This document shows positions 6,293 through 43,323 of a DNA stretch of 43,463 nucleotides, piece by piece. Within the stretch, counting starts at the first letter, position 1; every line of letters begins with the position of its first letter. The DNA lies in the IMG/VR virus record IMGVR_UViG_3300037014_000036, positions 1 to 43,463 of that record; one strand, 5' to 3'. The notes below the pieces were generated by a model. The model had not been told where the DNA came from. It was given only the letters and a program-made list of their open reading frames with translations, and made no database searches. This DNA comes from a virus. The translations under genes were made by a program, and so were the position numbers.

Positions 6293-6321
6293 CGGCATCC
6301 TTTCCGTATTGAACTGGGAGC

Positions 6322-6350
6322 AAAATACCATACTCCGAAAAACCTGTCAA
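6322..6350 (-). promoter_or_regulatory. Sigma70-type promoter of the leftward early operon
   Basis: Read on the minus strand, a perfect TTGACA (6350-6345) is followed after exactly 17 bases by TATTTT (6327-6322). Transcription would start near 6315 and run left into the early genes from 6292 to the window edge. It is one of the two best promoters in the window by match to consensus. Confidence 0.8.
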
Positions 6351-6371
6351 GAAGATTCTTTTCGGATTCTT

Positions 6372-6394
6372 GTTACGATTTTGGGAAACGTAAC
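6372..6394. promoter_or_regulatory. Dyad upstream of the early promoter (possible operator)
   Basis: GTTACG and CGTAAC form an inverted repeat with an 11-base centre, ending about 22 bases upstream of the -35 hexamer of the early promoter. Position and size would suit a regulator site. No T tract follows on either strand, so it is not an intrinsic terminator. Confidence 0.35.
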
Positions 6395-6429
6395 ACTCAG
6401 CGCACCAGGGCCGAGGGCGAGACAATATA

Positions 6430-9400: not shown

Positions 9401-10155
9401 TCGGCGAGAGGCACTGTCTTTTCGAGGTACTGCCGGGCCGTGGTGGCCCCCATGCCTTCACGGGGACCAACTCTACCTACTTTGCCAAGTATTTTGTTCC
9501 ACTCTACCCCCTTGCCCATCAAGCCAGTTGCCTTGAGTGCCTGTCCGCTACGGCTGACGGCCGGCAATAGGCCACTCGTTGCCCAGAACAGCGGATCGGT
9601 CAAGACGCCCACGCCCAGGTTGGCCGCGTGCTTGCCGCCCCACGTCGCCCAGTCATCCGATGATTCCGGCTTTAGGCCAGTGAGGTCCGCCGGCTGGATT
9701 CGCTTCTCAGGGTCGGTAATGCCAAGGGTGTCGGAAAAAGGGATGAGGTTCAGCAACCCGCCGCCCCAGTCGCCCGGCTTGGTTCCCATGCCCAAACCGG
9801 ACAAGATGCCACGGGCCGCAGCCGCCGGTTTATCAAGAAGCTCGCCCGTGTATTGTAGTGCGGTAGCCCCCTTCTGTCCCAACTCCGTCAGTAGGGACGC
9901 TTCATCCTCTGGTGTCAATTCTGGCGCAGTCTGCCGCCCCCTACGTGCCGCCGTGGGCATGGCAAGGCCATAGTCGAGTCCAAACGGGTCGGCCCTCCTG
10001 CGCCGTCTAGGGGCGTCCAGAAGGGTTGTGTACGGATCGCCAGCTAGGTAAGATTCGGCGTCTAGGGGGGTTGCAATGCCCGCGTAATCGGCGTAGGATG
10101 GCTGTTGACCGAATCCGTAGTCGAGCAACGGGTTCTGTGTGCGTCTGCGAACCAT
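6430..10155 (-). CDS. Very large virion-associated protein (1241 aa)
   Basis: This is the largest gene in the window and the last in the virion operon. The N terminus is Arg/Tyr-rich, followed by Gly/Ala-rich helical regions (GELLDKPAAAARGILSGLG). A later part resembles the membrane- or DNA-associated regions of large internal virion or polyvalent proteins: TTRFSFAPRN, then FRYSPSAFTKTEKK with a following RLIPFYPFQKQ block. No peptidase or lysozyme motif is evident. By size and position it could be an internal/ejection protein or a minicapsid-packed protein; I cannot decide. The stop is TAG. An AAGG site lies about ten bases upstream of the ATG. Confidence 0.8.
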   Translation of the reverse strand: MVRRRTQNPLLDYGFGQQPSYADYAGIATPLDAESYLAGDPYTTLLDAPRRRRRADPFGLDYGLAMPTAARRGRQTAPELTPEDEASLLTELGQKGATALQYTGELLDKPAAAARGILSGLGMGTKPGDWGGGLLNLIPFSDTLGITDPEKRIQPADLTGLKPESSDDWATWGGKHAANLGVGVLTDPLFWATSGLLPAVSRSGQALKATGLMGKGVEWNKILGKVGRVGPREGMGATTARQYLEKTVPLAEQSAAFQKVKDFAQKFNKLPVSDAEALLDTPIGGNLNIGLWGGGGRKPWATLGGGSTAGKAYAKGMDWMGAKTMRIPGMPWANSIFNQAGTLGIRDPDSQASGAGARFTQAREAGETAGRSLQNDLINITKKYDLDNIAGRNAIRRLAVAHNPTGAAAAETLLQTVHGVDPADIPKMRELFGKMSPGELLDTAKEWGVRGSLLDEYLPREAIGAHPGAAHRGGKGGVSATDRSGISRNPALRDISGEEATVNEVFANQTLADLADTPGAGGKETRKSIAEQIKQLLGGTASEKYLTNRQLDKLEKMLQKKPTHPAFAALPPGTATLHGLPMDDLVNVAKLAGAKPRDRANTLAKIFMRTAPESRKEYFNLDPAMAIAEGRFAPELRIAKAKLLVDIVSMPKALEGWAGTSGRLTHEAGLTLDQAAKDAGIKFGDMSGGLGVKVLEKMGLPADERLLNSIKTMRIRPDLAEQLGKFNKSFDAPESVSGALAALDKFNSFWKSGVTTRFSFAPRNIGSGTVKSMLDQVFSAKGSKVAWNLLHGSGVSQGDLSYVVNNPVVKAKIVELGLNPATVTAPEAANILATVMHTHWGTELGGMSDAGEKVARTVKDLLEERPGTKPITAKSVVDALKGRGEATWNPRQVGVGEKKGWAPFEAGRQANRMAEAQPRLTSWLKLTSEGYDPAVAADIARTSQFRYSPSAFTKTEKKVLKRLIPFYPFQKQSLAATAKELVERPGGPLGQLVKTQGQMSGSGGQFVPDYIRQSLSLPIPEGTPLIGPEPGGDPRFMTGFGLMHEDPFGYLGGGVSGAALDLVSRTNPLLKGLVETATNRSTFQRGPGGPRELSEQDPLIGRLASNLYDTATGSRTREPPRMPQLLESIVSNSPASAWLSMSRTLFDPRKSWTAKALNTLTGARVTDVPERTSEGITGSLLTQMMKEAGGRSFENVYFSKQQKAAMSPDQLAAAERLEHFKNMLAKKQRARAKAAVPASAL
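10026..10054 (+). promoter_or_regulatory. Candidate promoter for the lone plus-strand gene
   Basis: TTGTGT (10026-10031) and TAAGAT (10049-10054) are separated by 17 bases on the plus strand, about 130 bases before the ATG at 10187. It lies inside the beginning of the 1241-aa gene on the other strand, so the match could be chance. Confidence 0.4.
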
Positions 10156-10186
10156 TCCCGAGTGCCTTTAATCTAAGGAGCGACCG

Positions 10187-10438
10187 ATGAAAACTCTTGA
10201 GGAACAAGTCCGATCCTTGCGGTGGAGTCTCTGGACAACCTGGATAAATGGTGGTCTGCTTTTTTTAACCCTTCTCCTGTGGGTAATAGTGATACAGGTT
10301 GAGGTAGGCCAACTTTCTTCTGAGTTGTCGCCACCACCCCAAAAAATCAAGGATATAGTCAACGGCGAAATCATATTCGAGACCACCGCGTCAATAGTTG
10401 CTGGGCAGGAACGGAATGATTCCCCCGCCAAACATTGA
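10187..10438 (+). CDS. Lone plus-strand single-span membrane protein
   Basis: The 83-aa ORF has a strong TAAGGAG ribosome-binding site eight bases before its ATG. It has a charged N-terminal helix (residues 1-20), one strong transmembrane segment (about 22-42, GGLLFLTLLLWVIVIQVEV) and a polar C-terminal part with a Pro-rich hinge. The topology suggests N-in, C-out. It is the only plus-strand gene inside the leftward virion operon, starting 31 bases from the start of the 1241-aa gene and overlapping the tail of the next minus-strand gene by 48 bases. Lysis (spanin- or holin-like) or superinfection-exclusion roles are possible, but no motif decides. Confidence 0.65.
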   Translation: MKTLEEQVRSLRWSLWTTWINGGLLFLTLLLWVIVIQVEVGQLSSELSPPPQKIKDIVNGEIIFETTASIVAGQERNDSPAKH

Positions 10439-12259
10439 ACCGTGCGGATTCGCTATGGATCGCTTAGTTGCGGTGCCCTTGGTGGTCATCCCCCGAAGAA
10501 ATTCACTGATCTTGTCATCGGGCACCTTATTTTGCTTTAGTATTCTCACTATTGTTGGTGCGTCAGGCTCACCCGTCCAATTAGGAATTAATGCCCTATT
10601 GAGGTCCGCAATGTCACCCGGCGTGGCGTTTGCCATAAGCACGCTTAATCCGGGTGGAAGAAGAGGTTGGCCGGTCACTTTGTCCACAGGAGGTTGCGGC
10701 GGTGCATTGGGATCACGCGGCTTTCCACGCAACGCATCTACAAGCTCTCTAGCCGTGCCAGCCATAGCCGCTGGGTTCATACCACCGCCAGCGAGGTTCC
10801 CACCTGACATCATAGTTCCCAGGACACTTGCCATAAGTTGCTGGTTGACAACCTCTGGCGCGAGTTGCGGCGGCAGTCCAGCTATCGCCCAACTGGCGGC
10901 ATCTTCCGGTGCCTTGCCTTGATTGGTCAACGCTTGAAATCGCGCCTGCCCAGCGGAGATCGGCTGTCCCGCTGCGTTCGCACCGACGCGGAGTATCCGT
11001 TCTGCCATCGGGGCGTACTGACCGACGCCGTTCATCTCTTTTACCTTCGCCATGTGTTTGGCGAACAGGTCGGGAGTGGTTCCGCCCGCACCAGCCAATG
11101 CGGCTTGCAAGGTAGACAAGGCCGGTTTCCCTTCCTGGCCGGGAATCACCGACGCAACCCTGCCGCCCGGCGAACGGAACGGTCCCTGCCACGGTTGGAC
11201 GGCCCCTGTCGCCTGTCCGGCCAGTGCCGCATCCCGGTTGGCTAAGGTATCGGCTTTCCACTGGTCGTAGCCACCGCCCGACTGATAGGTTGCAGGGGCA
11301 CGATTGCTCATGGGAGTCTGTTGCAAGAGTTGCCCAGCTTGATCCCGACGCCCTTGCAATGCTGCCGCCAAGTCGAGACGTGACCGTGCCATATCGCCTC
11401 CGAAGTTGAACGCCCTTCCCGCTGCCGTATCAGGACCGCCGATGTTCGGACCCGGCTGGAATGGCCGACTCGGCACGTCACTGACACCGGGGGCCATGCC
11501 GCCTTGCGGTATTACGCGAAACGGATCGGGCGCACCCTGGAAAAATGGATTGGGAACACCACCCGCCGTTCCCGACAGGGCAGGGTTGGCAGCGAACATC
11601 CGCTGGGTGGCTGCATCGGTTATGCGTTGACCAGCAGAAGGTGGTTGCCAACCGCTTGTACCTTGTTGTTGCGGACGCGGCGCATTCATTCCCGCCGCCA
11701 ACGCCCTGTCGTTGGCTGTTGGCTGAATAAACCGTTGCGGTTGTGCGGCGTTGGGGTGAACGGGCAACATCCCTTGGCGCAAGGGCATCCCATTCATATC
11801 CAGCGGAAACGCCGCACCACTATTGTTTGTCGCCCCCCGCCAACCCGTCGGTATCGGAGAGGGAACACCAAGAGAAGTTTGCAACGATGGAATAGTCAGT
11901 GGCTTTCCGGCGAATGGATTGTTTTGTCCGAAACCACCCAGGCTAGCTTCTAAAGAGGGGCCTCCAGGGATCGGAACTTGTTCTGGTTCGATGCCTTGGA
12001 CTTGATTGAATGTACGAAGTCCCGAACTCCCCGCATTTATTGCCTGTCCACGATCCCCGAACTGTGCCGGACGAGGGGGTATCCACGGCGCAATGGGTTT
12101 GTTTTGTAGAAACCCTTGATACTGTGCCGGACGAGGGGGTATCCACGGCGCAATGGGTTTGTTTTGTAGAAACCCTTGATACGGCAGTAGTTTGGTGCGG
12201 TTTATCGTTTTGGGCATCTTCATTGGCCCCATGATCGAATCCAACAGACTTGTAGCCAT
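10391..12259 (-). CDS. Gly/Pro-rich virion protein with duplicated 20-residue unit
   Basis: This gene gives 622 aa from the ATG at 12259, which has an AAGGAG site six bases upstream; a longer in-frame reading to 12316 lacks this. The first third is rich in Pro, Gly and Gln, looks disordered, and contains two exact copies of YQGFLQNKPIAPWIPPRPAQ (from the 60-base duplication). The middle has Ala/Gln-rich helices and the last 200 residues look globular (KVKEMNGVGQYAPMAERILR, later APPQPPVDKVTGQPLLPPG). Its place between tail proteins and the 1241-aa protein suggests a structural role. Family not recognised. Confidence 0.75.
   Translation of the reverse strand: MATSLLDSIMGPMKMPKTINRTKLLPYQGFLQNKPIAPWIPPRPAQYQGFLQNKPIAPWIPPRPAQFGDRGQAINAGSSGLRTFNQVQGIEPEQVPIPGGPSLEASLGGFGQNNPFAGKPLTIPSLQTSLGVPSPIPTGWRGATNNSGAAFPLDMNGMPLRQGMLPVHPNAAQPQRFIQPTANDRALAAGMNAPRPQQQGTSGWQPPSAGQRITDAATQRMFAANPALSGTAGGVPNPFFQGAPDPFRVIPQGGMAPGVSDVPSRPFQPGPNIGGPDTAAGRAFNFGGDMARSRLDLAAALQGRRDQAGQLLQQTPMSNRAPATYQSGGGYDQWKADTLANRDAALAGQATGAVQPWQGPFRSPGGRVASVIPGQEGKPALSTLQAALAGAGGTTPDLFAKHMAKVKEMNGVGQYAPMAERILRVGANAAGQPISAGQARFQALTNQGKAPEDAASWAIAGLPPQLAPEVVNQQLMASVLGTMMSGGNLAGGGMNPAAMAGTARELVDALRGKPRDPNAPPQPPVDKVTGQPLLPPGLSVLMANATPGDIADLNRALIPNWTGEPDAPTIVRILKQNKVPDDKISEFLRGMTTKGTATKRSIANPHGSMFGGGIIPFLPSNY
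12061..12180 (-). repeat. Perfect 60-base tandem duplication in frame
   Basis: Bases 12061-12120 and 12121-12180 are identical over all 60 positions. The unit is a multiple of three and duplicates 20 residues near the N terminus of the 622-aa protein. Complete identity, including wobble positions, indicates a very recent event. Confidence 0.97.
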
Positions 12260-12290
12260 GACTATCTCCTTCTCTTTGACGTTCCCTATT

Positions 12291-13286
12291 TTAACGTACT
12301 TCCCCCCCGGAAGCAACGCAGATATTGTCCAAGTAGTGTTGTACCGTCTGACGGATGCCCGAATCGAAGTCCCATAGCGGCTCCCACCCTAACTCACGCC
12401 ACATCTTGCTGGCGTCGATGGCGTACCGCCAATCGTGGCCCGGCCGGTCTGTGACAAAGGTTATCAGCGACTCGCAAGGGGCATGGGGCAGGTCGGGGCG
12501 CAATTCATCCACGATCCGGCAGATCGTCCGTACCACGTCGATGTTCGCCTTCTCACAGTTGCCGCCGATGTTGTAGGTTTCCCCAGGTAGCCCATCCTCC
12601 AATACCCGCCACAAGGCCCGGCAGTGGTCCTCGACATATATCCAGTCCCGCACATTCTGCCCGTTTCCGTAGACGGGGATTGGGTTGCCCTCCAATGCCT
12701 TCAGGATGGTTTGGGGTATCAGCTTCTCGGGGAATTGGTACGGCCCGAAGTTATTCGAGCAGTTGGTGACGATGGTGGGTACGCCGTAGGTTCTGTGATA
12801 GGCCCGCACGAAATGGTCGGCCGCCGCCTTCGACGCCGAATAGGGCGAACTCGGATCGTAGGGGCTTGTCTCAGTGAACCGGCCTGTCGCCCCCAGGGAA
12901 CCGTAGACCTCATCCGTCGAAACGTGCAGGAACCGTTTGGTGCCGTGTCGCTTGGCGGCTTCCAATAGCGTGAACGTGCCGACGACGTTGGTGCGGACAA
13001 ACTCGGCGGGCCACTGGATCGAATTGTCAACATGCGTCTCGGCGGCGAAGTGAACTATGGCGTCCAGTTCATGTTCCGCAAATACATGCTCCACTATGTC
13101 CGCGTCAGCAATGTCGCCCCGGATGAAGGTGTGCGCCGGGTTGTCTAAGACCGATTGCAGCGAATTGAGATTCCCAGCGTAGGTCAGCTTGTCCAAGGTG
13201 ACGACGGACTCTCCACGGGCGATAGCTTGGCGCACAAAACAGCTTCCGATAAAGCCTGCTGAACCAGTGACTAGGATCGTGTTCAC
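12291..13286 (-). CDS. rmlB: dTDP-glucose 4,6-dehydratase-like (RmlB family)
   Basis: This extended SDR enzyme of 331 aa is near the usual RmlB length. It shows the NAD-binding TGSAGFIG near the N terminus, [11 protein letters not shown], the catalytic STDEVYGSL (Thr-Asp-Glu), YSASKAAAD (Tyr-x3-Lys) and [14 protein letters not shown], all RmlB hallmarks. RmlB converts dTDP-glucose to the 4-keto-6-deoxy sugar on the way to rhamnose and other deoxysugars. The GTG at 13286 overlaps the TGA of the upstream gene (GTGA); an adjacent GTG and an upstream TTG are alternatives. It is inserted among virion genes, apart from the RmlD-like gene at 19183. Confidence 0.93.
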
Positions 13287-13567
13287 CACTTTCTTTTCCC
13301 CTCGTGGCAACCTCTGGCACAGTGGCCGTGTTCCTGTTTGTACTCAGTCAGTCGCGTCCGTTCGTGCGCGGCTATCAGTTGGCAACCTTGCGTGCCGGTT
13401 GTATCCCAGTCCTCGCATAGTAGGCAAATCATTTTTCGTCGGGCTATCTCTTCCGGGCCGGTGGGTGCTGGGCAATTTCTTCTCGGCCAGCCTTTGATCT
13501 TCGCGGGCTTGCACCAGCCGCATCGGGCACACCGGATTCCACTTTCATCGGGCGTACAATCCATCAT
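13283..13567 (-). CDS. Cys-rich small protein, likely zinc-binding
   Basis: The 94-aa product has three cysteine clusters: CARCGWC near the N terminus, CLLCEDW in the middle with a following GC, and HCARGCHEG at the end. This looks like a small metal-binding protein. It starts at an ATG overlapping the stop of the 146-aa gene and ends overlapping rmlB, so it is translationally coupled on both sides. No function is assigned. Confidence 0.75.
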
Positions 13568-34057: not shown

Positions 34058-34285
34058 ATGAAGCACCAACGGCTATTATCAGAGACGCTAATAGCGTTTG
34101 ACCAACACAAAGAGTTGCCCGGAAAGCCGACCTATGCACAGCTAAACGCCTGGCGGTCGGTGGGCATGATTTCCCGACACGGGGGCGTGAAGAGAAGGGT
34201 GTACCTGGAGATGGTAAAAATCGGCGGGCGACCGCATACCAGCCTGGAAGCCTACATGCGATTCGAGGACTTAATCAATGAGTGA
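34058..34285 (+). CDS. DUF1580-like HTH protein
   Basis: The 75-aa product (LLSETLIAFDQHKELPGKPT, then a basic helix, VYLEMVKIGGRPHTSLEAYM) has the layout of DUF1580, a planctomycete DNA-binding-like family with a helix-turn-helix followed by a wing and ending in TS-x-EA. It is the first gene of the rightward cassette, translated from a near-leaderless start. It may regulate this cassette. Confidence 0.7.
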   Translation: MKHQRLLSETLIAFDQHKELPGKPTYAQLNAWRSVGMISRHGGVKRRVYLEMVKIGGRPHTSLEAYMRFEDLINE

Positions 34286-34484
34286 TCCGAGAACCATGCG
34301 ATACCGATTAAAGAGCGATCCGAGGGTGGAGTGTGAGGCCGAGGTTTTTGGAAGGGTTCCGGGTTGTCAGTGGGTGCGGGTGGATTACGTGGATGCGCAA
34401 TTGACCAAGTTATGCTGGTTGCACCCAAGGGACTTCTTTGATCTGTGTTGGGAGCCGATGCCCGAGCCTGCCAAGCCGGAATGA
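34278..34484 (+). CDS. Small protein, paralogous start to next gene
   Basis: This 68-aa product opens MSDPRTMRYRLKSDPRVECE; the YRLKSDPRV block recurs in the next gene. It ends with a Trp/Pro segment (WEPMPEPAKPE). It overlaps the DUF1580-like gene by 8 bases. Function unknown. Confidence 0.7.
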   Translation: MSDPRTMRYRLKSDPRVECEAEVFGRVPGCQWVRVDYVDAQLTKLCWLHPRDFFDLCWEPMPEPAKPE

Positions 34485-35014
34485 ATAGGGAGAGCGCCGT
34501 GGGATACCAATTAAAGAGTGACCCGAGTGTGAAGTGGAATCCAGTGGGTTTCGTTGGTAGTTGCCTCAAACGAACCCCACTGGGAACTTGCCCTGATGAT
34601 TGGATTTGGATTCCCGAGCCTGCCGAGCCGGTGCTGGTGGAGGATGAGTTAGAGGAACTCCGGCAGAAATACCCGATGACAACTGCGGAGTATGCAGAAC
34701 TTCTCGCTCGTGCTGCTACGGAGCTTCGACGGTTGCGGGCGGAAAAGGACCATCGTGAACGCCGGATGGACTGTTGGGCGCTGGCCGACAGATACCTGCA
34801 CGCCCTGCATCGGCTTCTAACGCCGGACGATATATGGGCTGCCCTGATAGAGAGCGGGGACGATCCCCAATACTTTGGCCTCGTCCAGATTACGCAACAC
34901 CACGGCAAGAATAGGTATTTTCAACGCCACCTTCTGGACGAAGCGCGGATCACGGACGCACTGATCAAGAAAGAAATGCAATCGCTGGTTGCGACCTTGA
35001 ACAAGTCACCATGA
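34481..35014 (+). CDS. Helical small protein (177 aa), unknown
   Basis: The ATG at 34481 overlaps the previous stop (ATGA). The N terminus repeats the YQLKSDPSV block; the middle is helical and charged (LEELRQKYPMTTAEYAELLA, then RAATELRRLRAEKDHRERR), followed by a globular C-terminal part. The layout suggests an early phage protein. The DNA around 34502-34530 is about four-fifths identical to 34300-34328, indicating a local duplication. Confidence 0.75.
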   Translation: MNRESAVGYQLKSDPSVKWNPVGFVGSCLKRTPLGTCPDDWIWIPEPAEPVLVEDELEELRQKYPMTTAEYAELLARAATELRRLRAEKDHRERRMDCWALADRYLHALHRLLTPDDIWAALIESGDDPQYFGLVQITQHHGKNRYFQRHLLDEARITDALIKKEMQSLVATLNKSP

Positions 35015-35091
35015 ACAATAGATTGCTGAGAACAAAAGACAATCTCGCCCACGCACCAGATGTCGTCGTGTTTCGGAAGAAGAAGCCGTGA
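35011..35091 (+). CDS. 26-aa basic peptide
   Basis: A 26-codon ORF (MNNRLLRTKDNLAHAPDVVV, then FRKKKP) starts in an ATGA overlap with the previous stop and ends in a GTGA overlap with the next start. Its continuity with the coupled chain supports real translation. Function unknown; the basic tail could bind nucleic acid or membrane. Confidence 0.45.
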   Translation: MNNRLLRTKDNLAHAPDVVVFRKKKP

Positions 35092-35303
35092 ACACCTGCA
35101 ATCCTCACTTCTGTAGCGCATTGGCCCGCGAGCCGGACGGACCCTACTTCTCGCCCGACGTGGGCCAGTTCTGGAAACGCAGCGGCAAACTCTACCTCTG
35201 GAACGGACAAGTCCTCAACGCCACCGTACCCGTCGGGCGGTACCTGCCGCAACCCTGTGACGACTTCTCGCACAACTACCAACTGCAAAAAGGAACCGCA
35301 TGA
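35088..35303 (+). CDS. Small unknown protein (71 aa)
   Basis: The gene starts at GTG 35088 overlapping TGA (GTGA). The product has Cys residues at both ends and an aromatic middle (GPYFSPDVGQFWKRSGKLYL, then WNGQVLNATV). No family is recognised. It is coupled to the FkbM methyltransferase gene downstream by an ATGA overlap. Confidence 0.65.
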   Translation: MNTCNPHFCSALAREPDGPYFSPDVGQFWKRSGKLYLWNGQVLNATVPVGRYLPQPCDDFSHNYQLQKGTA

Positions 35304-36055
35304 GCGACACAATCGACATCAACCTCATCAGCGACAGGGACTGGGAGTCACTGCTCGGGCCAGACACTATGAATATGAGCGAGTACAAGGGAACCCGGTC
35401 CTTTCGCCGATTCGACAACCCGCTATCGAAGTTGGTCTGCGAAGAATGTCTTACGGGCAAGTCCTACCCATTCGTCCAGAACATCGGACCCGTCAGGGTC
35501 ATCGCCGACGTGGGGGCGAACATCGGGGCCAGCGTCGTCTACTTCGCAACCGTTTACCCGGTAGCGACGATTCACGCCTACGAACCGTCGCCGACTGCCT
35601 TGCCACTCCTGGAGCACAACACGACAAAAAACTTCGTTATAATTCATCCCTTCGCACTAGGCGGCGAAAACGGGACACGCACCCTGTACCACGACTTTCA
35701 GGACTGCGTTAAGGATTCGTTCCATCGGCCTGAGTTATTCACGCTGGGCGACTCTCTGGCCTTCGTGCGATCGGCAAGAGAGGCGCTGGCGGGAATCGGA
35801 CACATCGACATCCTCAAGATCGACACTGAGGGCTGCGAAGTCGAAATCTTGGAAAACCTGGCCGAGGCCATAATCCCCATCAAGGTGATCTACGTCGAAT
35901 ACCACTCTTGGGCCGACCGAATACGCATCGACCAAATGCTGGCTCCCACACACCTGCTAATGCACGTCAACTCCTATTGGAACCATCCCCTCGGGGAACT
36001 CACCTACCTTAACAAAACCATAGTCGAGCAGTGGGACAAGGAACTAAACAAATGA
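35300..36055 (+). CDS. FkbM-family methyltransferase
   Basis: The 251-aa protein shows the FkbM signature: ADVGANIGAS (motif I, residues about 69-78), IHAYEPSP, and the late LKIDTEGCEVEIL (about 172-184). FkbM enzymes O-methylate sugars or natural products. An AAGGA site precedes the start. Both ends have ATGA overlaps, so it belongs to the coupled chain with the following methyltransferase. Confidence 0.9.
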   Translation: MSDTIDINLISDRDWESLLGPDTMNMSEYKGTRSFRRFDNPLSKLVCEECLTGKSYPFVQNIGPVRVIADVGANIGASVVYFATVYPVATIHAYEPSPTALPLLEHNTTKNFVIIHPFALGGENGTRTLYHDFQDCVKDSFHRPELFTLGDSLAFVRSAREALAGIGHIDILKIDTEGCEVEILENLAEAIIPIKVIYVEYHSWADRIRIDQMLAPTHLLMHVNSYWNHPLGELTYLNKTIVEQWDKELNK

Positions 36056-36609
36056 CATTCAACCCCCTGTACCACGAGAACACCGCGAAAGACGATACGG
36101 CACTCGCCGGACTCGCCCGGCAACGCCGGGATGAGTGCCCGTGGGGGTGCGCCGTTGCCGTCGAAGTCGGGGCTTGGGCCGGGCACAGCACCCTCATCCT
36201 GGCAGAACTTGGCTACACCGTCTTCGCCGTCGATCATTGGCAAGGTGGGGAAGGCGATAGAATACAAGCAATCGCCCAACTGATCGGCATAGACAAAGGA
36301 TTCAAGACCTTCTGTGAGAACATGGGCACGTCCCTACTGTCCACAGTCTTTCCCCTGCGTGGCAGTTCCGAGCTGATCGCATCCGTCTGGCCCCGAAACC
36401 GACCTATCGACCTCTGCTTCATCGACGCCGATCATAGGTATAATTCCGCCCTACAGGACATCCAAATCTGGACCCGCTTGATGCGAAAAGGCGGTCTAAT
36501 GATCGGCCACGACTACAGCGATTTCTTCCCTGGCGTCGTCTTGGCCGTCGAGGACACCGGCCCCTTCCAACAGGCAGGCGACTCTATCTGGTACAGGAGA
36601 ATAGAATGA
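36052..36609 (+). CDS. Class I SAM methyltransferase (Methyltransf_24-like)
   Basis: The 185-aa product includes VEVGAWAGHST (SAM motif I), YTVFAVDHWQGG and LCFIDADHRYNSALQDIQIW, then LMRKGGLMIGHDY, as in Methyltransf_24 and related enzymes that often sit in glycan or rhamnosyl clusters. Start at 36052 by ATGA overlap. Substrate unknown; pairing with FkbM suggests sugar methylation. Confidence 0.88.
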   Translation: MTFNPLYHENTAKDDTALAGLARQRRDECPWGCAVAVEVGAWAGHSTLILAELGYTVFAVDHWQGGEGDRIQAIAQLIGIDKGFKTFCENMGTSLLSTVFPLRGSSELIASVWPRNRPIDLCFIDADHRYNSALQDIQIWTRLMRKGGLMIGHDYSDFFPGVVLAVEDTGPFQQAGDSIWYRRIE

Positions 36610-36764
36610 GATGCGAAATATGTCGCTACTTTAAGATTCCATCCGAAAATCTGACGGCGCATTTCGGACGATGTATGCGCTACGCTCCACACCCCAGACC
36701 ATACACAATCGGCTTAATGCCCCCCACAGATAGTTGGACATTGGCCAATTATGCGGGATACTGA
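36606..36764 (+). CDS. Small Cys protein (52 aa)
   Basis: It starts MRCEICRYFK with a later GRCMRYAP, a pattern seen in small phage zinc-finger-like proteins (C-x2-C then C-x-x-x-P). Starts in an ATGA overlap with the methyltransferase. Its end overlaps the next ORF by 14 bases. Confidence 0.65.
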   Translation: MRCEICRYFKIPSENLTAHFGRCMRYAPHPRPYTIGLMPPTDSWTLANYAGY

Positions 36765-36900
36765 GTTCTGCGGCGAGTTCCAACAGAAGGGCGATATTGA
36801 TTACGACTGGACTTTCTGCCCCAACTGCGGCCAAAGGTACTTTCTGGCAGAAAAACATCATTGCGGCGAGTCCCAACCAAAACCCGAGGACAACCCATGA
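36751..36900 (+). CDS. Small zinc-ribbon protein (49 aa)
   Basis: The product has an FCPNCGQRYF pair and two flanking Cys (FCGEF, HCGES), enough for a zinc ribbon. It starts inside the end of the previous ORF and ends in an ATGA overlap with the next. Likely a real small gene; function unknown. Confidence 0.6.
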   Translation: MRDTEFCGEFQQKGDIDYDWTFCPNCGQRYFLAEKHHCGESQPKPEDNP

Positions 36901-37163
36901 TCTTTGCCCGCATTGTCGCAGCCTTGAAACACACCTTTCACCGGACACCCTGGACCCCATTCTCTTCCAACCCCACAAAAAACGGAATATACTTCGTCTG
37001 CTTTCAATACGGCGAGGACCGTCCCCACCCCCCAGGCTACCACAGAATCGAAGCCGCCATCTATGACACCCAACGCGGGTGGTCGCTGGGTTCCGAACAT
37101 GACATGACATTTACCCACTGGATGCCCGTACCTAACCCGCCAGCCCGATCAGAGAACCCATGA
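36897..37163 (+). CDS. DUF551-like small phage protein (88 aa)
   Basis: The ATG at 36897 overlaps the previous stop. The product ends with FTHWMPVPNPP, the THWMPLPEPP-type block of DUF551 phage proteins, preceded by a strand pair (GIYFVCFQYGEDRPHPPGYH). Function unknown. Ends in ATGA overlap with the next gene. Confidence 0.7.
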   Translation: MIFARIVAALKHTFHRTPWTPFSSNPTKNGIYFVCFQYGEDRPHPPGYHRIEAAIYDTQRGWSLGSEHDMTFTHWMPVPNPPARSENP

Positions 37164-37459
37164 CACACTCACCTGAACCGTGGCGCATTGTACCAAGGGA
37201 ACCATCGGGGGCTGCCCCGATAATCCTTGACGCCAATGGAGAGATTGTGGAGTTGGAACCGCACAACGAAGACTAGACTATTGCTAACTGGCCCCGCATC
37301 GTCGCCTGCGTCAACGCCCTACGCAACTGGACCGACGAAGACCTCGAAGGCCGTACCTTCCTGAAAAGCGATACACTCACCGAGGATGGAAAGGTCGTCG
37401 GGATGCTATTCCAGACAGAGCGCGTCGTCAGACCACCAACTAAATGGGAGAACCCATGA
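37160..37459 (+). pseudogene. MTHSPEPW-family gene interrupted by an in-frame TAG
   Basis: From ATG 37160 the reading is 38 codons (MTHSPEPWRIVPREPSGAAP...), then TAG at 37274-37276, and then continues in the same frame for 60 codons to a TGA that overlaps the next gene's ATG. The continuation includes PRIVACVNALRNW, matching QRIVACVNACRSL in the intact paralogue at 37456. So the ancestral gene was 99 codons and an amber change cut it. TAG is used as a normal stop elsewhere in the window (6430, 5755, 17548), so genome-wide amber recoding is unlikely. Confidence 0.8.
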
Positions 37460-37893
37460 CACATAGCCCAGAACCGTGGCGCATTGAAGATGTTTACAGG
37501 TTGATTGACGCCAACGGAAACGTCATTTGCCAATTTGACGACCGAGGATATGGACCACCCAACGAGTGTAACCGTCAACGCATCGTCGCCTGTGTCAACG
37601 CCTGCCGTTCCTTGCCAACCGAATATCTACAATGGGTCGCCACGGAAGGCCGGCACTTGCTTAAGGGTTCGACGCCGCTAGTCGAAACCTCAATGGCAAA
37701 GTTCGAGAAGATGATAGACAAGCCAGCCGAACCCGTCTGCCACGTTTGGGAGAACCAAACCACCTGCCACGCCGAGTGCGGCATCTGCCACGCCACCCTA
37801 CACCTCGAATCCGACATCCACTACGTCGGCTGCGAACATATCGACAAATACCACTTGACTCCAACTCCCCTATATAAGGAATCCCAGAAATGA
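37456..37893 (+). CDS. MTHSPEPW-family early phage protein with Cys tail
   Basis: This 145-aa product starts MTHSPEPWRIEDVYRLIDAN and has RQRIVACVNACRSLPTEYLQ, the hallmark of a widespread phage early family of unknown role. The C-terminal half has C-x3-H, CGICH and GCEH clusters, a likely metal site not present in the interrupted paralogue. Start has a GGGAG site and an ATGA overlap. Confidence 0.8.
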   Translation: MTHSPEPWRIEDVYRLIDANGNVICQFDDRGYGPPNECNRQRIVACVNACRSLPTEYLQWVATEGRHLLKGSTPLVETSMAKFEKMIDKPAEPVCHVWENQTTCHAECGICHATLHLESDIHYVGCEHIDKYHLTPTPLYKESQK

Positions 37894-38033
37894 CTAACGA
37901 CGGCGGACCCGCCTTCCCAGCCCCTGAATATACCTTCTCGCAGGGCATGTCCCTAATTCGCCCTGGCTCTTGTGGTTGTCGGCGTCATCGGGAATATCTT
38001 TTTGTCTTGTCGGGGTTGACACAGAAAACGTAA
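37890..38033 (+). CDS. Truncated MTNDGGPAFP-type protein (47 aa)
   Basis: The product begins MTNDGGPAFPAPEYTFSQGM then SLIRPGS. Many phages carry proteins opening NDGGPAFP and continuing GMSLRDYF; here the sequence diverges after GMSL and stops soon, so it looks truncated or frameshifted. A +1 frame just after this point would give a hydrophobic FALALVVVGVIGNIFLS stretch without a start, consistent with a lost end. It overlaps the promoter at 38016. Confidence 0.6.
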   Translation: MTNDGGPAFPAPEYTFSQGMSLIRPGSCGCRRHREYLFVLSGLTQKT

Positions 38034-38044
38034 TCCAGTAAGAT
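38016..38044 (+). promoter_or_regulatory. Near-consensus promoter of the noncoding locus
   Basis: TTGACA (38016-38021) and TAAGAT (38039-38044) are separated by exactly 17 bases. Transcription would begin near 38050-38052. No convincing protein gene follows for 1.5 kb, so it likely drives a noncoding RNA. Confidence 0.8.
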
Positions 38045-38050
38045 TCACAA

Positions 38051-38208
38051 TACCCGAGCCGACCTACGTGCGTAGTTGCGAACTTAACCCCCCTAACAGC
38101 CGGGGTACATGATGAGGTCGGGTCTGGGCACACAAACGAGAATATCGCGCTTCCAGCGCAATTCTATAGCAGCCATCTGTCCTGCCCAGGCCCCAGGTGG
38201 CTGTTTTT
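38051..38208 (+). ncRNA. Candidate small structured RNA (about 158 nt)
   Basis: The predicted RNA starts at the promoter's expected start and ends at a hairpin plus T5. Pairings visible by eye: CCGACCT (38059-38065) with AGGTCGG (38115-38121), flanked by CCC/GGG (38053-38055 with 38126-38128); ACCCC (38087-38091) with GGGGT (38102-38106); TACG/CGTA around 38065-38074; GCGC with GCGC (38147-38159). The 5' end therefore enters a helix directly. No Rfam family is recognised. It could be a regulator or the first part of a longer RNA if the terminator is leaky. Confidence 0.55.
38170..38208 (+). terminator. Intrinsic terminator-like hairpin
   Basis: CAGCCATCTG (38170-38179) pairs with CAGGTGGCTG (38194-38203), ten pairs with one G-T, followed by TTTTT (38204-38208). 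This can end the RNA from the 38016 promoter. Confidence 0.7.
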
Positions 38209-38722
38209 CTGCGCCTACTCACGCCAGCCGTAAGGCGTCTATAGCGGCCCCATTTGCCGCACCTTACCTCGTTACGGCAGGGACAACACCTGAGAAGTCG
38301 GTCCCTACTGGCCCCCAAAACAGGCTCGACAAAGCTGACTCCTCACGGGACCATCGCTGCTCGCTGACCCAGTGGAACCTTGCGACAGCCCTAATAGCCG
38401 CACTCCGCGGCGACACGCCTGGCCCGGACTGCCCGGGGATGAGAAGCCGCGTAACGCATCGTGATCGTCATCATTTCACGAGCAAGAGGGTACTCGGTAA
38501 AACCAGAGAGGAACCGCCTCTCATGCGGCGAAAACGCCGTCGCCTAGATTGCCCGCCATGCGGGAAGACGTGCAGCAGCGATCAGGGGATTGCAGCATCC
38601 CGAGACGCCTGCAGCCAACGTCTGTGTGTTATAGACTTTTAGCCCACACGTCTAGGGGGGTTTGTGATACCGCTTCACCTCAAGTCCCATAGGGGCCACT
38701 GCGCACCAACACCAGCCCCGCC
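38209..38722 (+). other. Hairpin-dense noncoding stretch
   Basis: No reading frame here looks like a protein; an open 177-codon frame exists but has random-like composition. Perfect or near-perfect hairpins are packed together: GCCGTAA/TTACGGC (38227-38278) enclosing GCGGC/GCCGC; GGTCCC/GGGACC (38300-38352); GAGAGG/CCTCTC (38506-38522); CGGCG-AAAA-CGCCG (38526-38539); CCCGC-CAT-GCGGG (38552-38564); GGGAT/ATCCC (about 38586-38601); AGACG/CGTCT (about 38603-38622). It may be the body of a large structured RNA reaching the terminator at 38803. Confidence 0.45.
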
Positions 38723-38751
38723 TTGCAATTCCCGGTGACCTGTAGTAATAT
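38723..38751 (+). promoter_or_regulatory. Second promoter just before a terminator
   Basis: TTGCAA (38723-38728) and TAATAT (38746-38751) are 17 bases apart. The expected start (near 38758) is only about 15 bases before the terminator stem, so any transcript is about 45 nt unless the terminator is read through. Confidence 0.55.
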
Positions 38752-38772
38752 GGCAGCGGACACGAGAGACTC

Positions 38773-38803
38773 GGCCCCGGCGCGTCAACGCTGGGGCCTT
38801 TTT
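38773..38803 (+). terminator. Strong intrinsic terminator
   Basis: GGCCCCGGCG (38773-38782) and CGCTGGGGCC (38789-38798) form a ten-pair stem with one G-T and a six-base loop, followed by TTTTT (38799-38803). It closes the hairpin-dense noncoding locus. Confidence 0.9.
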
Positions 38804-39548
38804 CGTATCGTGTAACTTCGATCCTCTCTCGTCACCATTAGATATAGCGCCACCAACGAAACGTCGTCAACGTGCCAAAACGTCGTGAAGTTCCTTATCA
38901 GGGGCCACCAGAAAAGAAATAGAGTAAATTACCTAGTGTGAAACACCATTTCTTGAAATATCCCCACGGCCACACGTAACTAATAACGGCGCACCAGTGG
39001 TCCATACCCGGGGGTAGGTTGGCCCTGCTAGCGCATGTATCGACGCAAGCGCATACATAGCAACACGTTACGCTATGCTGCTACCTGTCGATAGATAGCT
39101 TGCCCAGCTTATTAGGCTTACGTAAAGCATTTATCACTAAGATGATAATGATTGTCATGTATGGTATAGACTAGCATACACTACTAAGGTGCTGATGTTA
39201 GTGATGTATCGTGCTGCCTGCTATGCGGCATGGGTACGCGTGTGTGTTTGCAAATCGCGTGCCAACTCCCCCGTTTGACGGCGACCTTCCCCCTTGAAAC
39301 GGTTTGCCCATTTTAACGCCACCTTTGGGGCGAACTAAGTGTCCAGTTTGGATTTTTCGGATTTCACCCTAGTCGTCTCCCCTCGATGACTGGCTCATGG
39401 GATCGTCGTGCTGCCCCCTCGGTTGGATTTCTTCGCCCCTTCTTTTGGGGCAAAGTGTAAAATCGTGAGCGGAATTGAAAATCGGCCGCCGAATCGACTG
39501 CGAATCGACGCGACGGCCTAACCACCAGACCCTAGTAAGGAGAGTCCA
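38804..39548. other. Intergenic region, candidate origin or control region
   Basis: No gene is supported here. It is more A/T-rich in its middle part. Features seen: a palindrome TTACGTAA (39118-39125), an inverted repeat TTATCA(N6)TGATAA (39131-39148), repeated ATGTAT motifs (listed separately), and a GCCCC(N7)GGGGC hairpin (39435-39451) without a T tract. A TAAAAT -10-like box at 39458 lacks a good -35. The AAGGAG site for the next gene ends it. Confidence 0.5.
39035..39209. repeat. Scattered ATGTAT/ATACAT motifs (iteron-like)
   Basis: ATGTAT occurs at 39035-39040, 39157-39162 and 39204-39209; its complement ATACAT at 39053-39058; a partial complement CATACA at 39175-39180. The first pair forms an inverted repeat with a 12-base centre, the third and fifth one with TGTATG/CATACA. 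Such clustering could mark binding sites of a replication or regulatory protein. Confidence 0.45.
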
Positions 39549-39968
39549 ATGGCTACCTCTACGCTATCCCCCGCCCCCGTTTCTAGCAAGCCCCTGCAAT
39601 CGACTGGGGTATCCCCTGCGCCGTCTTATGCGGAAGCTATTGCCGCAATCATGGCGCAGGTGGCCGCTGGCACCAAATCCCCCGAATTGGCCGGCAAGCT
39701 GATTGCGAGTTTGGCCCCACCGGCCCGACCGGCGGCCGCGCCGCGGATTACCCCGGTTGATGCACGCCCCTATCGCTATACGGTGAGCGAGAAGGGGAAC
39801 CGGCTCTTGTGGCACAAGAACGGCAAGACCGGCTTCACTCATTCCCCAGCGGATTGGGCGGACATCGTGATCCTGGTTGAGAAGGGCATGATCCAAGCCA
39901 TGCTCCGCGATCAGAATCCCCCAATGAGCGAGAGCTATGCTCAGCGTCTCGCCAAGAAGGCAGGCTAG
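39549..39968 (+). CDS. Unknown accessory protein (139 aa)
   Basis: The ATG follows an AAGGAGAG site. The N-terminal 60 residues are Ala/Pro/Ser-rich and look disordered; the C-terminal half (RPYRYTVSEKGNRLLWHKNG, then FTHSPADWADIVILVEKGMI) looks like a small folded domain ending in a helix. No family recognised. Confidence 0.75.
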   Translation: MATSTLSPAPVSSKPLQSTGVSPAPSYAEAIAAIMAQVAAGTKSPELAGKLIASLAPPARPAAAPRITPVDARPYRYTVSEKGNRLLWHKNGKTGFTHSPADWADIVILVEKGMIQAMLRDQNPPMSESYAQRLAKKAG

Positions 39969-39981
39969 TGTGCGACCCTAT

Positions 39982-40021
39982 CCACTACTGGGCAGGCGTA
40001 GTGGTGTGGGTTTCACACTAC
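39982..40021 (+). promoter_or_regulatory. Leader with two mutually exclusive hairpins
   Basis: CCACTAC (39982-39988) pairs with GTAGTGG (39998-40004), while GTGGTGTG (40001-40008) pairs with CACACTAC (40014-40021). The two helices share 40001-40004, so only one can form. This sits between the 139-aa gene and the RBS of the 78-aa gene (CGGAG about 30 bases later). Confidence 0.4.
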
Positions 40022-40049
40022 CCTATCCCCTTGCTACGGAGAACGAACT

Positions 40050-40286
40050 ATGCGATGCGAGAAGCGACAGACTTGGTATCTATTGGTATGGCTCGCTGAT
40101 GCGCTGGATTGGCATATTGTTGCCAACCATAATTCGCGCAGCTTACGTTGCGCCATGTCATGGGCGCGGAACACTTATCCCCGGATGACATGCCATGAAC
40201 GGTTCGCGGTAGTGCCGTCTTGCGAACTGGAAGAGGCACTGAGCCGCAAGAATGTGTATCCTTCACTTCGCGCCGCCCTGAGCTAG
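40050..40286 (+). CDS. Unknown small protein (78 aa)
   Basis: The ATG follows a CGGAGAACGAACT leader. The product starts MRCEKRQTWYLLVWLADALD and has Cys/Trp/Arg-rich helices. Possibly a small DNA- or membrane-associated protein. An intrinsic terminator follows 30 bases after the stop. No family recognised. Confidence 0.6.
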   Translation: MRCEKRQTWYLLVWLADALDWHIVANHNSRSLRCAMSWARNTYPRMTCHERFAVVPSCELEEALSRKNVYPSLRAALS

Positions 40287-40315
40287 TCCACCCTATCCCC
40301 CGATCTGGAGTTTGA

Positions 40316-40348
40316 CCCCCGCCGTCCGGTTTGGATTGCGGGGGTTTT
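40316..40348 (+). terminator. Intrinsic terminator after the 78-aa gene
   Basis: CCCCCGC (40316-40322) pairs with GCGGGGG (40338-40344), followed by TTTT (40345-40348). A smaller pairing lies in the loop. The gap 40349-40507 holds an AGGGGCG/CGCCCCT long-range pair and two copies of ACGCGATT, but no gene. Confidence 0.75.
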
Positions 40349-40507
40349 GCATTTCTTGGCCGGCCGATTGTGCCACAAGGCCCCCTGCAATTCGCTACGT
40401 TGCGGCTGTTGCGTTGCGTCGGCTGATGCGTGATTCGGGCAGGGGCGCGGCCGACGGCGTTAAACGCGATTTTACGCGATTCGCCCCTCGAATGACAGGG
40501 AAATAGC

Positions 40508-40711
40508 ATGAGTATAGAGCAAGCAAGAGACAAAGCACGGTGTACGGCCTACCAGTATCGTCGGCCAGCGTACCTGGTGCTGGATACGCTAGTGTGCGGG
40601 TTGAGGATATTCCTTGGCCCGCACCCTGAGTACCTGGATAGCGAACCTACTCGGTATTTCCCCATTGAGATCGTGCATCCCGACGGAGTACGGGAATCGG
40701 CAATAGGGTAG
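40508..40711 (+). CDS. Unknown small protein (67 aa)
   Basis: The ATG has a GGGA site eight bases upstream. The product has a hydrophobic middle (AYLVLDTLVCGLRIFLGP) and a polar C terminus (RYFPIEIVHPDGVRESAIG). It may be soluble with a small beta domain. No family is recognised. Confidence 0.6.
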   Translation: MSIEQARDKARCTAYQYRRPAYLVLDTLVCGLRIFLGPHPEYLDSEPTRYFPIEIVHPDGVRESAIG

Positions 40712-40738
40712 GCGGGGGCGGTGGGTCGGGGCTAACAG

Positions 40739-40823
40739 GTAATGCCGCCAGAGACACACGGTAACGCTGTCGTAACGGCAGCAGCGTTACATAGTCTTTA
40801 ATGCCGCCAGAAGGAGTTTCCCT
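40739..40823 (+). promoter_or_regulatory. Repeat-flanked hairpin leader
   Basis: Two copies of TAATGCCGCCAGA (about 40739-40751 and 40799-40811) flank a perfect nine-pair hairpin, GTAACGCTG (40761-40769) with CAGCGTTAC (40782-40790). The second copy continues into AGGAGTTTCCCT and the start of the next gene. A near-identical AATGCCGCCAGAAGGAGTTT-type leader recurs before 42487. Confidence 0.6.
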
Positions 40824-41108
40824 ATGCAAGCGAAAGGTCGACGCGGTGCGTACTACCGCGTGGTAGTTACAGCGGCGCTACAGGCTAACTTTGTGGCCCG
40901 TATCCTTCCGGCCGCAACCCCAATAACACTAACGACTTACGACAATTCATCTGGAATAACGCTCACGAGTCGCTACAATACTAGCAGAGAACAGAACCAC
41001 GGCCCTCGGGCCACCCGGCGGGGAAACACGCAGCAGCCGCGCGGCGGCCGGTTAGTCACCGGCCATCGGATACACTGCCGCGCGGGCGGCTTACACAACG
41101 CCGCATAG
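40824..41108 (+). CDS. Possible protein with conserved leader (94 aa)
   Basis: The ATG lies behind the perfect AAGGAG leader shared with the 42487 gene, which argues for translation. The product has a short hydrophobic/basic first third (YYRVVVTAALQANFVARILP) and an Arg/Gly/Thr-rich, low-complexity rest, which is weak protein evidence. It may be degenerating. A GGCCGGT(N5)ACCGGCC hairpin (41046-41064) lies near its end. Confidence 0.45.
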   Translation: MQAKGRRGAYYRVVVTAALQANFVARILPAATPITLTTYDNSSGITLTSRYNTSREQNHGPRATRRGNTQQPRGGRLVTGHRIHCRAGGLHNAA

Positions 41109-41128
41109 CGGCAGAATCGAGTGAGAAC

Positions 41129-41407
41129 ATGAGCGATTGGACATTACCACTACAGCGAGTCGGCGGAAAAATTGAGGATGCCGAGTGCATTATCCTCGCC
41201 GATACATGCGGCGGCAAGCTGGGAGCCGAGTTTGGCGATTTTGTCGCCCTGGCTTGCAACTGTCACGATGACCTGGTGGCAGCGTGCAAGGCAATGGTTG
41301 AGGCGGCACACCATAGCGGCAGGATGATCGGATTCGACTCACAGGCATTCGACGCAGCCCGCGCCGCCCTCGCCAAGACGGAGGCCACTCATGCCGCTAC
41401 CAGTTGA
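41129..41407 (+). CDS. Small early phage protein with HDDLVAA helix
   Basis: The 92-aa product contains ACNCHDDLVAACKAMVEAA and ends with DAARAALAKTEA, an arrangement common in small phage proteins of unknown function (N-x-HxxLVAAL...ARAALA). It overlaps the next gene's start by 17 bases. Confidence 0.75.
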   Translation: MSDWTLPLQRVGGKIEDAECIILADTCGGKLGAEFGDFVALACNCHDDLVAACKAMVEAAHHSGRMIGFDSQAFDAARAALAKTEATHAATS

Positions 41408-41591
41408 CACGAACAAACCGCCGCTACCAGATTACTATGATGCCAAGCGCCTCGGTCCTGATTGGCACCTGACCTGTAGGGTTTGCAAGCGCCGCTGGGC
41501 ACTGCCGGTTGGCAATGATCATCCAGGCAACCTATTGCGGCTCCTAGACCACGGCCGCAGTCACACGGAGGCCGCCGATGCCACTACCTGA
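41391..41591 (+). CDS. Small zinc-finger-like protein (66 aa)
   Basis: The product has CRVCKRRW followed by DHGRSH, a possible C2H2-type metal site. It starts MPLPVDTNKPPLPDYYDAKR. It lies between and overlaps both neighbours in the coupled group leading to the ImmA-like gene. Confidence 0.65.
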   Translation: MPLPVDTNKPPLPDYYDAKRLGPDWHLTCRVCKRRWALPVGNDHPGNLLRLLDHGRSHTEAADATT

Positions 41592-42006
41592 CCGACTGAC
41601 GATTTCCGAGTGTGAAGCGATGCTAGTAGCGCGAGTGGAAAATCGTGGCTACCGCGTGATCTGCCAGCCGTGCATGGACAGCGGCATGGTCGATTCAACA
41701 CGGCGGCTGGTGCGTTACGGTTACGCCGATCCAACTGACCGATTGGCGACGTTGGCGCACGAATACGCGCACACCCTCGGGCACGAACCGACCGACATGG
41801 GCAGCCTAGTAATGGCCTTCCGATTCGGTCGGCTGGACGCCTGCTGCCAGGTCTGGCGATACGAGTTGCTGGTTTGGCGGCGCGCCGAGCGCATCTTGCG
41901 ACGGCTAAATCCAAAGGGTTTCAACTGGCGTCGTCATGCGAGACGGAAGATGCAGAACTTCGCCCGTGAGTTACGGATGATTGCCAAGAACGTATCAGTG
42001 GAGTAA
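41578..42006 (+). CDS. ImmA/IrrE-like zinc metalloprotease
   Basis: The 142-aa protein has a clear gluzincin-type HExxH motif in LATLAHEYAHTLGHE, followed at spacing by a helix with RYELLVWRRAERIL whose Glu can be the third zinc ligand. This is the pattern of ImmA/IrrE proteins, which cleave partner XRE repressors in phages and mobile elements. The XRE gene follows after 4 bases, strengthening the call. It starts MPLPDRLTISECEAMLVARV. Confidence 0.82.
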   Translation: MPLPDRLTISECEAMLVARVENRGYRVICQPCMDSGMVDSTRRLVRYGYADPTDRLATLAHEYAHTLGHEPTDMGSLVMAFRFGRLDACCQVWRYELLVWRRAERILRRLNPKGFNWRRHARRKMQNFARELRMIAKNVSVE

Positions 42007-42010
42007 GACA

Positions 42011-42394
42011 ATGCCCGTTCCTGACCGACTGAAAACTGCCCGGCTCCGCGCCGGCCTGACCCAGCGGCAACTCGCCGCGAAGCTCGGCTTTCACACAATG
42101 AGCATCAGCCAGCTAGAGCGCGGGGTGCGGAATCCGTCGATGGCGTTGGGTTGGAAGCTGTACCTGGAGGATATAGCACGGGGTATCCTGCAACCATCAC
42201 CGGGTGCTATCGCTTCTTATGCGCGGCGTGGCGTTGGCGCTGGCAAGACGATTGTCAAGCCATCGGCCACCAACCTACGTCGGAAGGAAATCCCCCTCGT
42301 GCATGTTAGCAATCAGAAGATAGTTGCCTTTGAGAACTGCAACGCCATCATCGGATATGACGTTGCGCCCAAGAAGATGGCTGGGCTGGGATAG
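42011..42394 (+). CDS. XRE-family helix-turn-helix regulator
   Basis: The 127-aa product has an HTH_3 domain near the N terminus: RLKTARLRAGLTQRQLAAKL, then GFHTMSISQLERGVRNPS. The C-terminal part is basic and could be an oligomerisation or protease-sensitive region. Pairing with the ImmA-like protease resembles the ImmR-ImmA switch of ICEBs1, where cleavage of the repressor relieves repression. Operators have not been identified. Confidence 0.85.
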   Translation: MPVPDRLKTARLRAGLTQRQLAAKLGFHTMSISQLERGVRNPSMALGWKLYLEDIARGILQPSPGAIASYARRGVGAGKTIVKPSATNLRRKEIPLVHVSNQKIVAFENCNAIIGYDVAPKKMAGLG

Positions 42395-42486
42395 TTGGAA
42401 TGTCCCGGCCGGGATTGTGCGCAGTCTCGGCCCGGTTGTTGCACCCTCACCCCATAGACGGCCATGCCGCCAGAAGGAGTTTCTCT

Positions 42487-43323
42487 ATGCTTGAACAGCA
42501 GTACGACATCAGCGGGGCCATTGTGTTCTGGTCCCTGCAACCCACGCCCTATCAGGCGGTCAAGGACATTTTCGACCGGCTGGGGCTGAGTGGTTGCGTG
42601 CCAAACCCCAGGACGGACCAATCCGCCTTGGAACACAGCATCAAGGCCGTGTGCGGCACGAAGAACAAGGCGGTGATGAGCCGCAAGCGCCCCAAGCGGA
42701 ACGGGGTGGAGTTGGTGGCGATCACGCGGAACGAACTCCGCAACGATTACATCACCAGCTTCGGTGCCAAGGTGGTGGAGGGCCGCGTCAAGACGGATTA
42801 CGGCTACGCCGACGAGTACAGGCTGACGGAGGAGTACCTGGCGTCCAAGGCGCTGCTTACCACCACGGCCGTCGGTATGGCCCTTGCGGCTGCCGTGGCG
42901 AAGTACGACGGCATGAAGGGGTTTGCCAAGCCGGGCGTGTTTTACATCCCGGAACACCACCTCCAGGATTGGCAGCACCTTTGTAGCCTGATTGAAGGTG
43001 CCCAAGAGGGCAACGCCACTACGGCTATCCGGGCCGCGATGGATGAGGGTACGGCCCGTGCCATTCGTGACAACCTGAGCAAGGAAGTCCAGGAGCAGGC
43101 GGCCAAGCTGCTGGACGACGTGAGCAAGGGCACGCTGAACGATACCCAGTTGCACGTCCGGGCGGAGCAGGCCGCGGCGTTGGTGGACAGGGTGAACCTC
43201 TACTCATCCATCCTGGGTGAGGCTTTGGGAGGGCTGAAGAACGTGGCCCTGGTGGCTCAGAGTGCTGCCGGTGCGGCTGCCATGCAGGACTTCGCCCAGA
43301 GTGGTGTGGGCGTTTGCGTCTAG
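42487..43323 (+). CDS. Unknown phage protein (278 aa, DUF6744-like?)
   Basis: Start at ATG 42487 behind the GAAGGAGTTTCTCT leader. The product has ISGAIVFWSLQPTPYQAVKD, IFDRLGL, NPRTDQSALEHSIKAVCGTK, a central strand-rich domain and a helical C-terminal half (VDRVNLYSSILGEALGGLKN). The layout reminds me of DUF6744, but with low certainty. It could be an accessory or host-takeover protein. The C terminus is short and hydrophobic. Confidence 0.7.
   Translation: MLEQQYDISGAIVFWSLQPTPYQAVKDIFDRLGLSGCVPNPRTDQSALEHSIKAVCGTKNKAVMSRKRPKRNGVELVAITRNELRNDYITSFGAKVVEGRVKTDYGYADEYRLTEEYLASKALLTTTAVGMALAAAVAKYDGMKGFAKPGVFYIPEHHLQDWQHLCSLIEGAQEGNATTAIRAAMDEGTARAIRDNLSKEVQEQAAKLLDDVSKGTLNDTQLHVRAEQAAALVDRVNLYSSILGEALGGLKNVALVAQSAAGAAAMQDFAQSGVGVCV

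Follow-up and report, generated by a model that had tools for sequence, protein, structure and literature searches.

Is the long gene-free stretch of this phage genome transcribed into a structured non-coding RNA, as the earlier note had proposed, and what might such an RNA do? The window, meaning the whole stretch of DNA analyzed, is a 43,463-base virus record for which no close relatives were found. The genes for its capsid, terminase, and portal point leftward and extend up to 33883, and small accessory genes run rightward from 34058, with plus-strand genes spanning 34058-37893. The gap that follows is the longest gene-free gap in the window genome and in all relatives examined, and the rightward genes 39549-43323 and beyond lie downstream of it. 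At 37137-37602, the window carries two tandem paralogous small genes, both beginning MTHSPEPWRI; the second lies directly upstream of the candidate RNA. A distant relative (30%) is present in the accessory region of the related phage G005. Elsewhere, an exact 60-bp tandem duplication occurs at 12061-12180 within a long minus-strand gene. Reading transcription from the signals in Table 1, we consider it very probable that one or two non-coding RNAs are produced from this 1.65-kb gene-free stretch.

Table 1. Coordinates of the gene-free gap and of the features predicted within it
Feature	Position	Strand	Details
Gene-free gap	37894-39548		about 1,656 nt; flanking genes end at 37893 and start at 39549
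Sigma-70-type promoter	38016..38044	+	TTGACA (38016-38021), 17-nt spacer, TAAGAT (38039-38044); predicted start about 38051
Predicted short RNA, about 158 nt	38051..38208	+	5' branched helix 38053-38128, hairpin 38139-38165, terminator
Intrinsic terminator 1	38170..38208	+	10-bp stem CAGCCATCTG/CAGGTGGCTG, then TTTTT
Extension, present only on terminator 1 read-through	38209..38803	+	38220-38808 folds with z -2.9
Most strongly folded domain	38484..38683	+	closing helix 38495-38504/38659-38672
Intrinsic terminator 2	38773..38803	+	10-bp stem GGCCCCGGCG/CGCTGGGGCC, then TTTTT
Remainder of gene-free gap	38804..39548	.	AT-richer

The TTGACA/TAAGAT promoter with its 17-base spacer and the two intrinsic terminators described in the earlier note are all present, and the predicted terminators account for both RNA lengths that it had put forward (158 nt and about 750 nt). 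To weigh these signals, promoters and terminators were counted with one uniform definition over the whole 43 kb on both strands, with a promoter cut-off of at least 10/12. Three promoter sites reach this cut-off genome-wide, compared with about two in shuffled genomes, and the promoter by itself is not significant above shuffles. Strong distinct terminators number four, compared with about 1.3 per shuffled genome; one of the same definition lies on the minus strand at about 30177. Taken singly, each signal would be unremarkable. The significant part is their clustering: one of the three promoter sites and two of the four terminators fall on one strand within 790 bases, which is unlikely to be due to chance.

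Another of the three promoter sites, TTGACA-17-TATTTT at 6350(-), is likely a leftward early promoter. It lies inside a 277-bp block (6143-6419) that is 99.3% identical in the relative G001, the neighboring genes being about 80-93% alike. Because this promoter sits in a block 99% identical in G001, it suggests that the phage group uses promoters of the TTGACA-17 type.

The earlier note had seen no believable protein gene at the locus, and our results bear this out. The frame that it had singled out, 177 codons at 38109-38642 in which a protein-like codon signal would have spoken against an RNA, scores -0.11 bits per codon on this single sequence, compared with +0.1 to +0.5 for nearly all training genes; no such signal was seen. 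Codon-bias profiles stay near background in all six frames throughout the gap, the longer stop-to-stop frames on either strand match no Pfam or PHROG family, and tblastn returned no match. A decayed protein gene was rejected, with no family match in any frame.

Folding, a check that the earlier note had suggested, revealed more structure than expected on the plus strand, the one that would be read from the promoter. The predicted short RNA folds with z -3.2 (1 of 200 shuffles folds as well). The helix expected right at the 5' end of the transcript is indeed predicted as a branched helix, but the 5' 80 nt alone reach only z -1.65, slightly better than shuffles. The 758-nt transcript gave z of about -3.45 to -3.3 on the plus strand and -1.1 on the minus strand. 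The strongest domain gave z -4.53 on the plus strand (0 of 200 shuffles) and -2.81 on the minus strand, and ranks 6th of 432 windows. It comprises hairpins at 38506, 38525, and 38552 and a long arm at 38566-38623. The three consecutive hairpins reported at 38506-38564 (GAGAGG/CCTCTC, GCGGCG-AAAA-CGCCGT, and CCCGC/GCGGG) are present, with mean pair probabilities of 1.00, 0.77, and 0.99. Three 9-10-nt complementary pairs join distant parts of the transcript; they are not much above chance, and we claim no tertiary contact.

A coarse calibration scan of the same genome found that a few other 758-nt, 200-nt, and 150-nt windows, many of them coding, equal or beat these folds, the share of same-size windows folding equally well being a few per cent. 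The fold excess is thus moderate and suggestive, and on its own not decisive. The strand preference and the coincidence with the promoter and terminators are better arguments than fold strength.

We then compared the locus with known RNAs. At both gathering and relaxed thresholds, no Rfam family reached its gathering threshold and only chance-level matches appeared, in agreement with the earlier remark that no family motif could be recognized. The same note had likened the locus to GOLLD and ROOL, which are abundant or induced phage-encoded structured RNAs and have, to our knowledge, no known function. The likeness holds for size and phage context, as both are large (about 600-850 nt) structured RNAs from intergenic regions of phages or prophages. 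It fails elsewhere: the covariance models of ROOL (RF03087) and GOLLD (RF02032), both covered by cmscan, gave no match at any reported threshold (the ROOL search had no match in 14 control genomes either), and a tRNA search of the entire 43 kb found none, whereas ROOL and GOLLD often sit near tRNA islands (PMC12286853). The candidate RNA also differs from them in its internal intrinsic terminator and in a fold excess that is moderate, not extreme. Neither the model scores nor the tRNA context would place it in the ROOL or GOLLD family.

As far as sequence signals go, the locus has what is expected of a phage small RNA gene, namely its own promoter, an intrinsic terminator, and no open frame. 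A comparable unit is the lambda 6S RNA of the pR'-tR' leader, which combines a strong sigma-70 promoter with a short terminated RNA and possible read-through. The candidate resembles it in its strong sigma-70 promoter, a terminated RNA in the 150-200-nt range, and possible read-through; unlike the lambda unit, it is not located 5' of structural genes and has no recognized antiterminator gene or sequence relation. In phage HK022, the structured putRNA occupies the extreme 5' end of a transcript, with terminators after it (PMC9378689). The candidate is likewise structured at its 5' end and followed by terminators, a likeness of layout, and it differs from putRNA in length and branching.

Homologues were sought at several levels. 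A DNA similarity search of phage and plasmid records found no match to the RNA locus. The exact pattern CATGCGGCGAAAACGCCG occurs in two viral contigs, but within a helicase gene, and was dismissed as chance; a longer pattern retrieved nothing from genome contigs. Relatives were sought through the capsid, terminase, portal, helicase, and neighboring genes. The helicase led to G001 (92%), G002 (79%), G006 (46%), and G007 (33%); the 37456 gene, terminase, and portal to G005, of which L059 is a near-identical fragment; and the portal alone to G022 and G023. In none of the records searched did blastn detect the RNA, nor did covariance models built from single sequences, one for the 158-nt RNA and one for the 200-nt domain. 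Over 0.72 Mb of relatives' records, the best hits of these models had E 2.4 (158-nt RNA; overlapping the end of a coding gene) and E 0.058 (200-nt domain). The DNA, protein-neighbor, and covariance-model searches all failed to find a homologue.

A different RNA candidate emerged in G005 (L047, IMGVR_UViG_3300032342_000667), whose terminase and portal are related to those of the window and which also encodes a relative of the 37456-37893 protein. Here, a TTGACA-16-TAGGAT promoter at 12561 precedes 660 gene-poor bases (12596-13255) that fold with z -7.2 on the plus strand and -3.0 on the minus strand; other gaps of the relatives are mostly scattered around z -1. The G005 RNA has no Rfam match and shares no sequence with the window RNA beyond chance. 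The two are alike in combining a TTGACA promoter with a long gene-poor structured RNA. The G005 RNA differs in its setting, between a row of repeats and the rightward terminase and later genes, near a Cas12f/TnpB-like gene. We consider 12561-13255 of G005 a stronger structured-RNA candidate than the window locus; for the latter it establishes no more than that the same kind of arrangement exists in another phage of this structural lineage. A gap in G006 (12807-13332, z -6.9) was rejected as a structured RNA, since its sequence reads as a short gene with strong hairpins after it.

The Cas12f/TnpB-like proteins and repeats of the relatives may merit a separate study. G001 (L049, IMGVR_UViG_3300037264_001715) encodes a 431-aa Cas12f/TnpB-like effector at 8530-9825, within 8248-11655, and directly downstream of it a 13-repeat CRISPR array with repeats of about 36 nt (GGTGGAGAGCAGCGTCAATTCAAGGGTGACTACAGG) and spacers of about 30 nt; no cas1/cas2 was noticed near the effector. 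The window lacks this 3.4-kb cassette, which has CCCTCCA at both edges, although the site itself (about 6143) is otherwise 92-99% identical. None of the G001 spacers matches the window. G005 carries a 420-aa Cas12f/TnpB-like protein and repeats at 10321-12549, and the two proteins match each other (32%, E 3e-50); both are also related to Cas12f1 and TnpB. The G005 repeats include two of 36 nt ending AGGGAATGCGGG at 11619-11710, further single copies scattered through the record, and, at 12372-12549, 5' of the structured RNA, about seven truncated 10-11-nt repeats (GGGAATGCGGG) with unique spacers of 15-18 nt, a row that is possibly a minimal-repeat guide array. The window itself has no Cas12/TnpB effector and no CRISPR-like array with which a tracrRNA or guide RNA would be expected, and its RNA belongs to no CRISPR or TnpB system of the window genome. 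Two 8-mers of the G001 anti-repeat do occur in the RNA; because the window has neither effector nor array, they were taken as chance and a guide-RNA role was rejected.

With its signals, the absence of a gene, the clustering of those signals, and a moderate plus-strand excess of structure, all of which are observed, the locus is well supported as a candidate transcribed, structured, non-coding unit. Our preferred reading, held tentatively and at somewhat less than an even chance, is that of a free-standing non-coding RNA gene for a trans-acting structured RNA, mainly of 158 nt. Host RNA polymerase would start at about 38051, and most transcripts would end at terminator 1, yielding a compact RNA that the 5' helix and, at the 3' end, the terminator hairpin would protect. 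A minority may read through, or be antiterminated, to terminator 2, giving about 750 nt that would include the branched domain. The RNA would probably act in trans via its structure, for instance as the binding partner of a host or phage protein. We infer a trans role mainly because the next gene is distant, there are two terminators, and start-site pairing is unconvincing: the exposed loops pair with phage translation starts no clearly better than shuffled loops, the best energies against 51 phage start regions being at or within about 1.5 sd of the shuffled ones. Antisense action on the phage's own genes was rejected on the same ground. Also in favor of the preferred reading is G005, related in its terminase (38%) and portal (44%), where this layout recurs in a stronger, though unrelated, form. 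Against it count the failure to find a homologue, the other genome windows that fold as strongly, and the weak 5' 80 nt; moreover, a simple small RNA would not be expected to have a 570-nt read-through part between two terminators. A variant that seems improbable to us takes the transcript in its full length of about 750 nt as the first of a new class of large structured phage RNAs, the hairpin at 38168-38205 being part of the fold and not a stop; the unrelated 660-nt RNA of G005 would then show that the lineage repeatedly carries such RNAs.

In the main rival, which we regard as possible but rather unlikely, the locus would serve the rightward genes in cis, as a leader or antitermination module. 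By analogy with lambda pR'/6S, a constitutive promoter would give a short terminated transcript until an antiterminator, either a Q-like protein or a nascent 5' structure as in HK022 put, let polymerase pass both terminators. The 37000-40500 region has no other plus-strand promoter of at least 9/12, and none of at least 10/12 exists up to the window end; structure begins almost at the 5' end of the transcript; and in G005 the promoter and 660-nt RNA lie directly 5' of the same-strand terminase, portal, and later genes, which supports a leader for G005 itself. In the window, however, the first downstream gene starts 745 nt past terminator 2, the late genes run leftward from 33883, away from the promoter, and no Q, N, or other antiterminator family was recognized among the proteins scanned. 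That the gap is instead functionless spacer or decayed DNA, whose GC-rich composition gives the strong folds and whose terminators merely end the upstream operon, has a low probability. Its sequence has no detectable relative, coding windows reach similar fold z-scores, and the terminators could serve the plus-strand genes 34058-37893; yet 1.6 kb without use is rarely kept in phage genomes, the promoter coincides with the start of the unit, and the structure excess lies on the strand that it would transcribe.

Also of low probability is a part in a replication origin, in which an origin-proximal transcript would serve as primer or regulator and the AT-richer remainder of the gap as the unwinding region. 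The cumulative GC skew reaches its minimum at 39781, just beyond the gap, GC content falls to 36% over 120 nt at 39091, and an imperfect 73-bp palindrome (39133-39205) lies beside the RNA. An Rfam match to the copy-control antisense RNA of plasmid R1162, at 39483-39556 just before the gene at 39549, would also point to an origin, but it is below threshold and at chance level (26.3 bits, gathering 55, E 0.065) and is probably chance. Set against an origin, the gap has no iteron family, and AT content is higher in two other stretches of the genome. Independently of the RNA, the palindrome and the skew minimum mark a possible replication origin region; a resemblance to a Fur box at about 39143 gave no match.

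At present, the free-standing RNA gene that we favor is no more than a candidate, represented by a single orphan sequence. If two related phages of one lineage each had a putatively promoter-driven structured RNA of their own, that lineage would provide a fresh test set.
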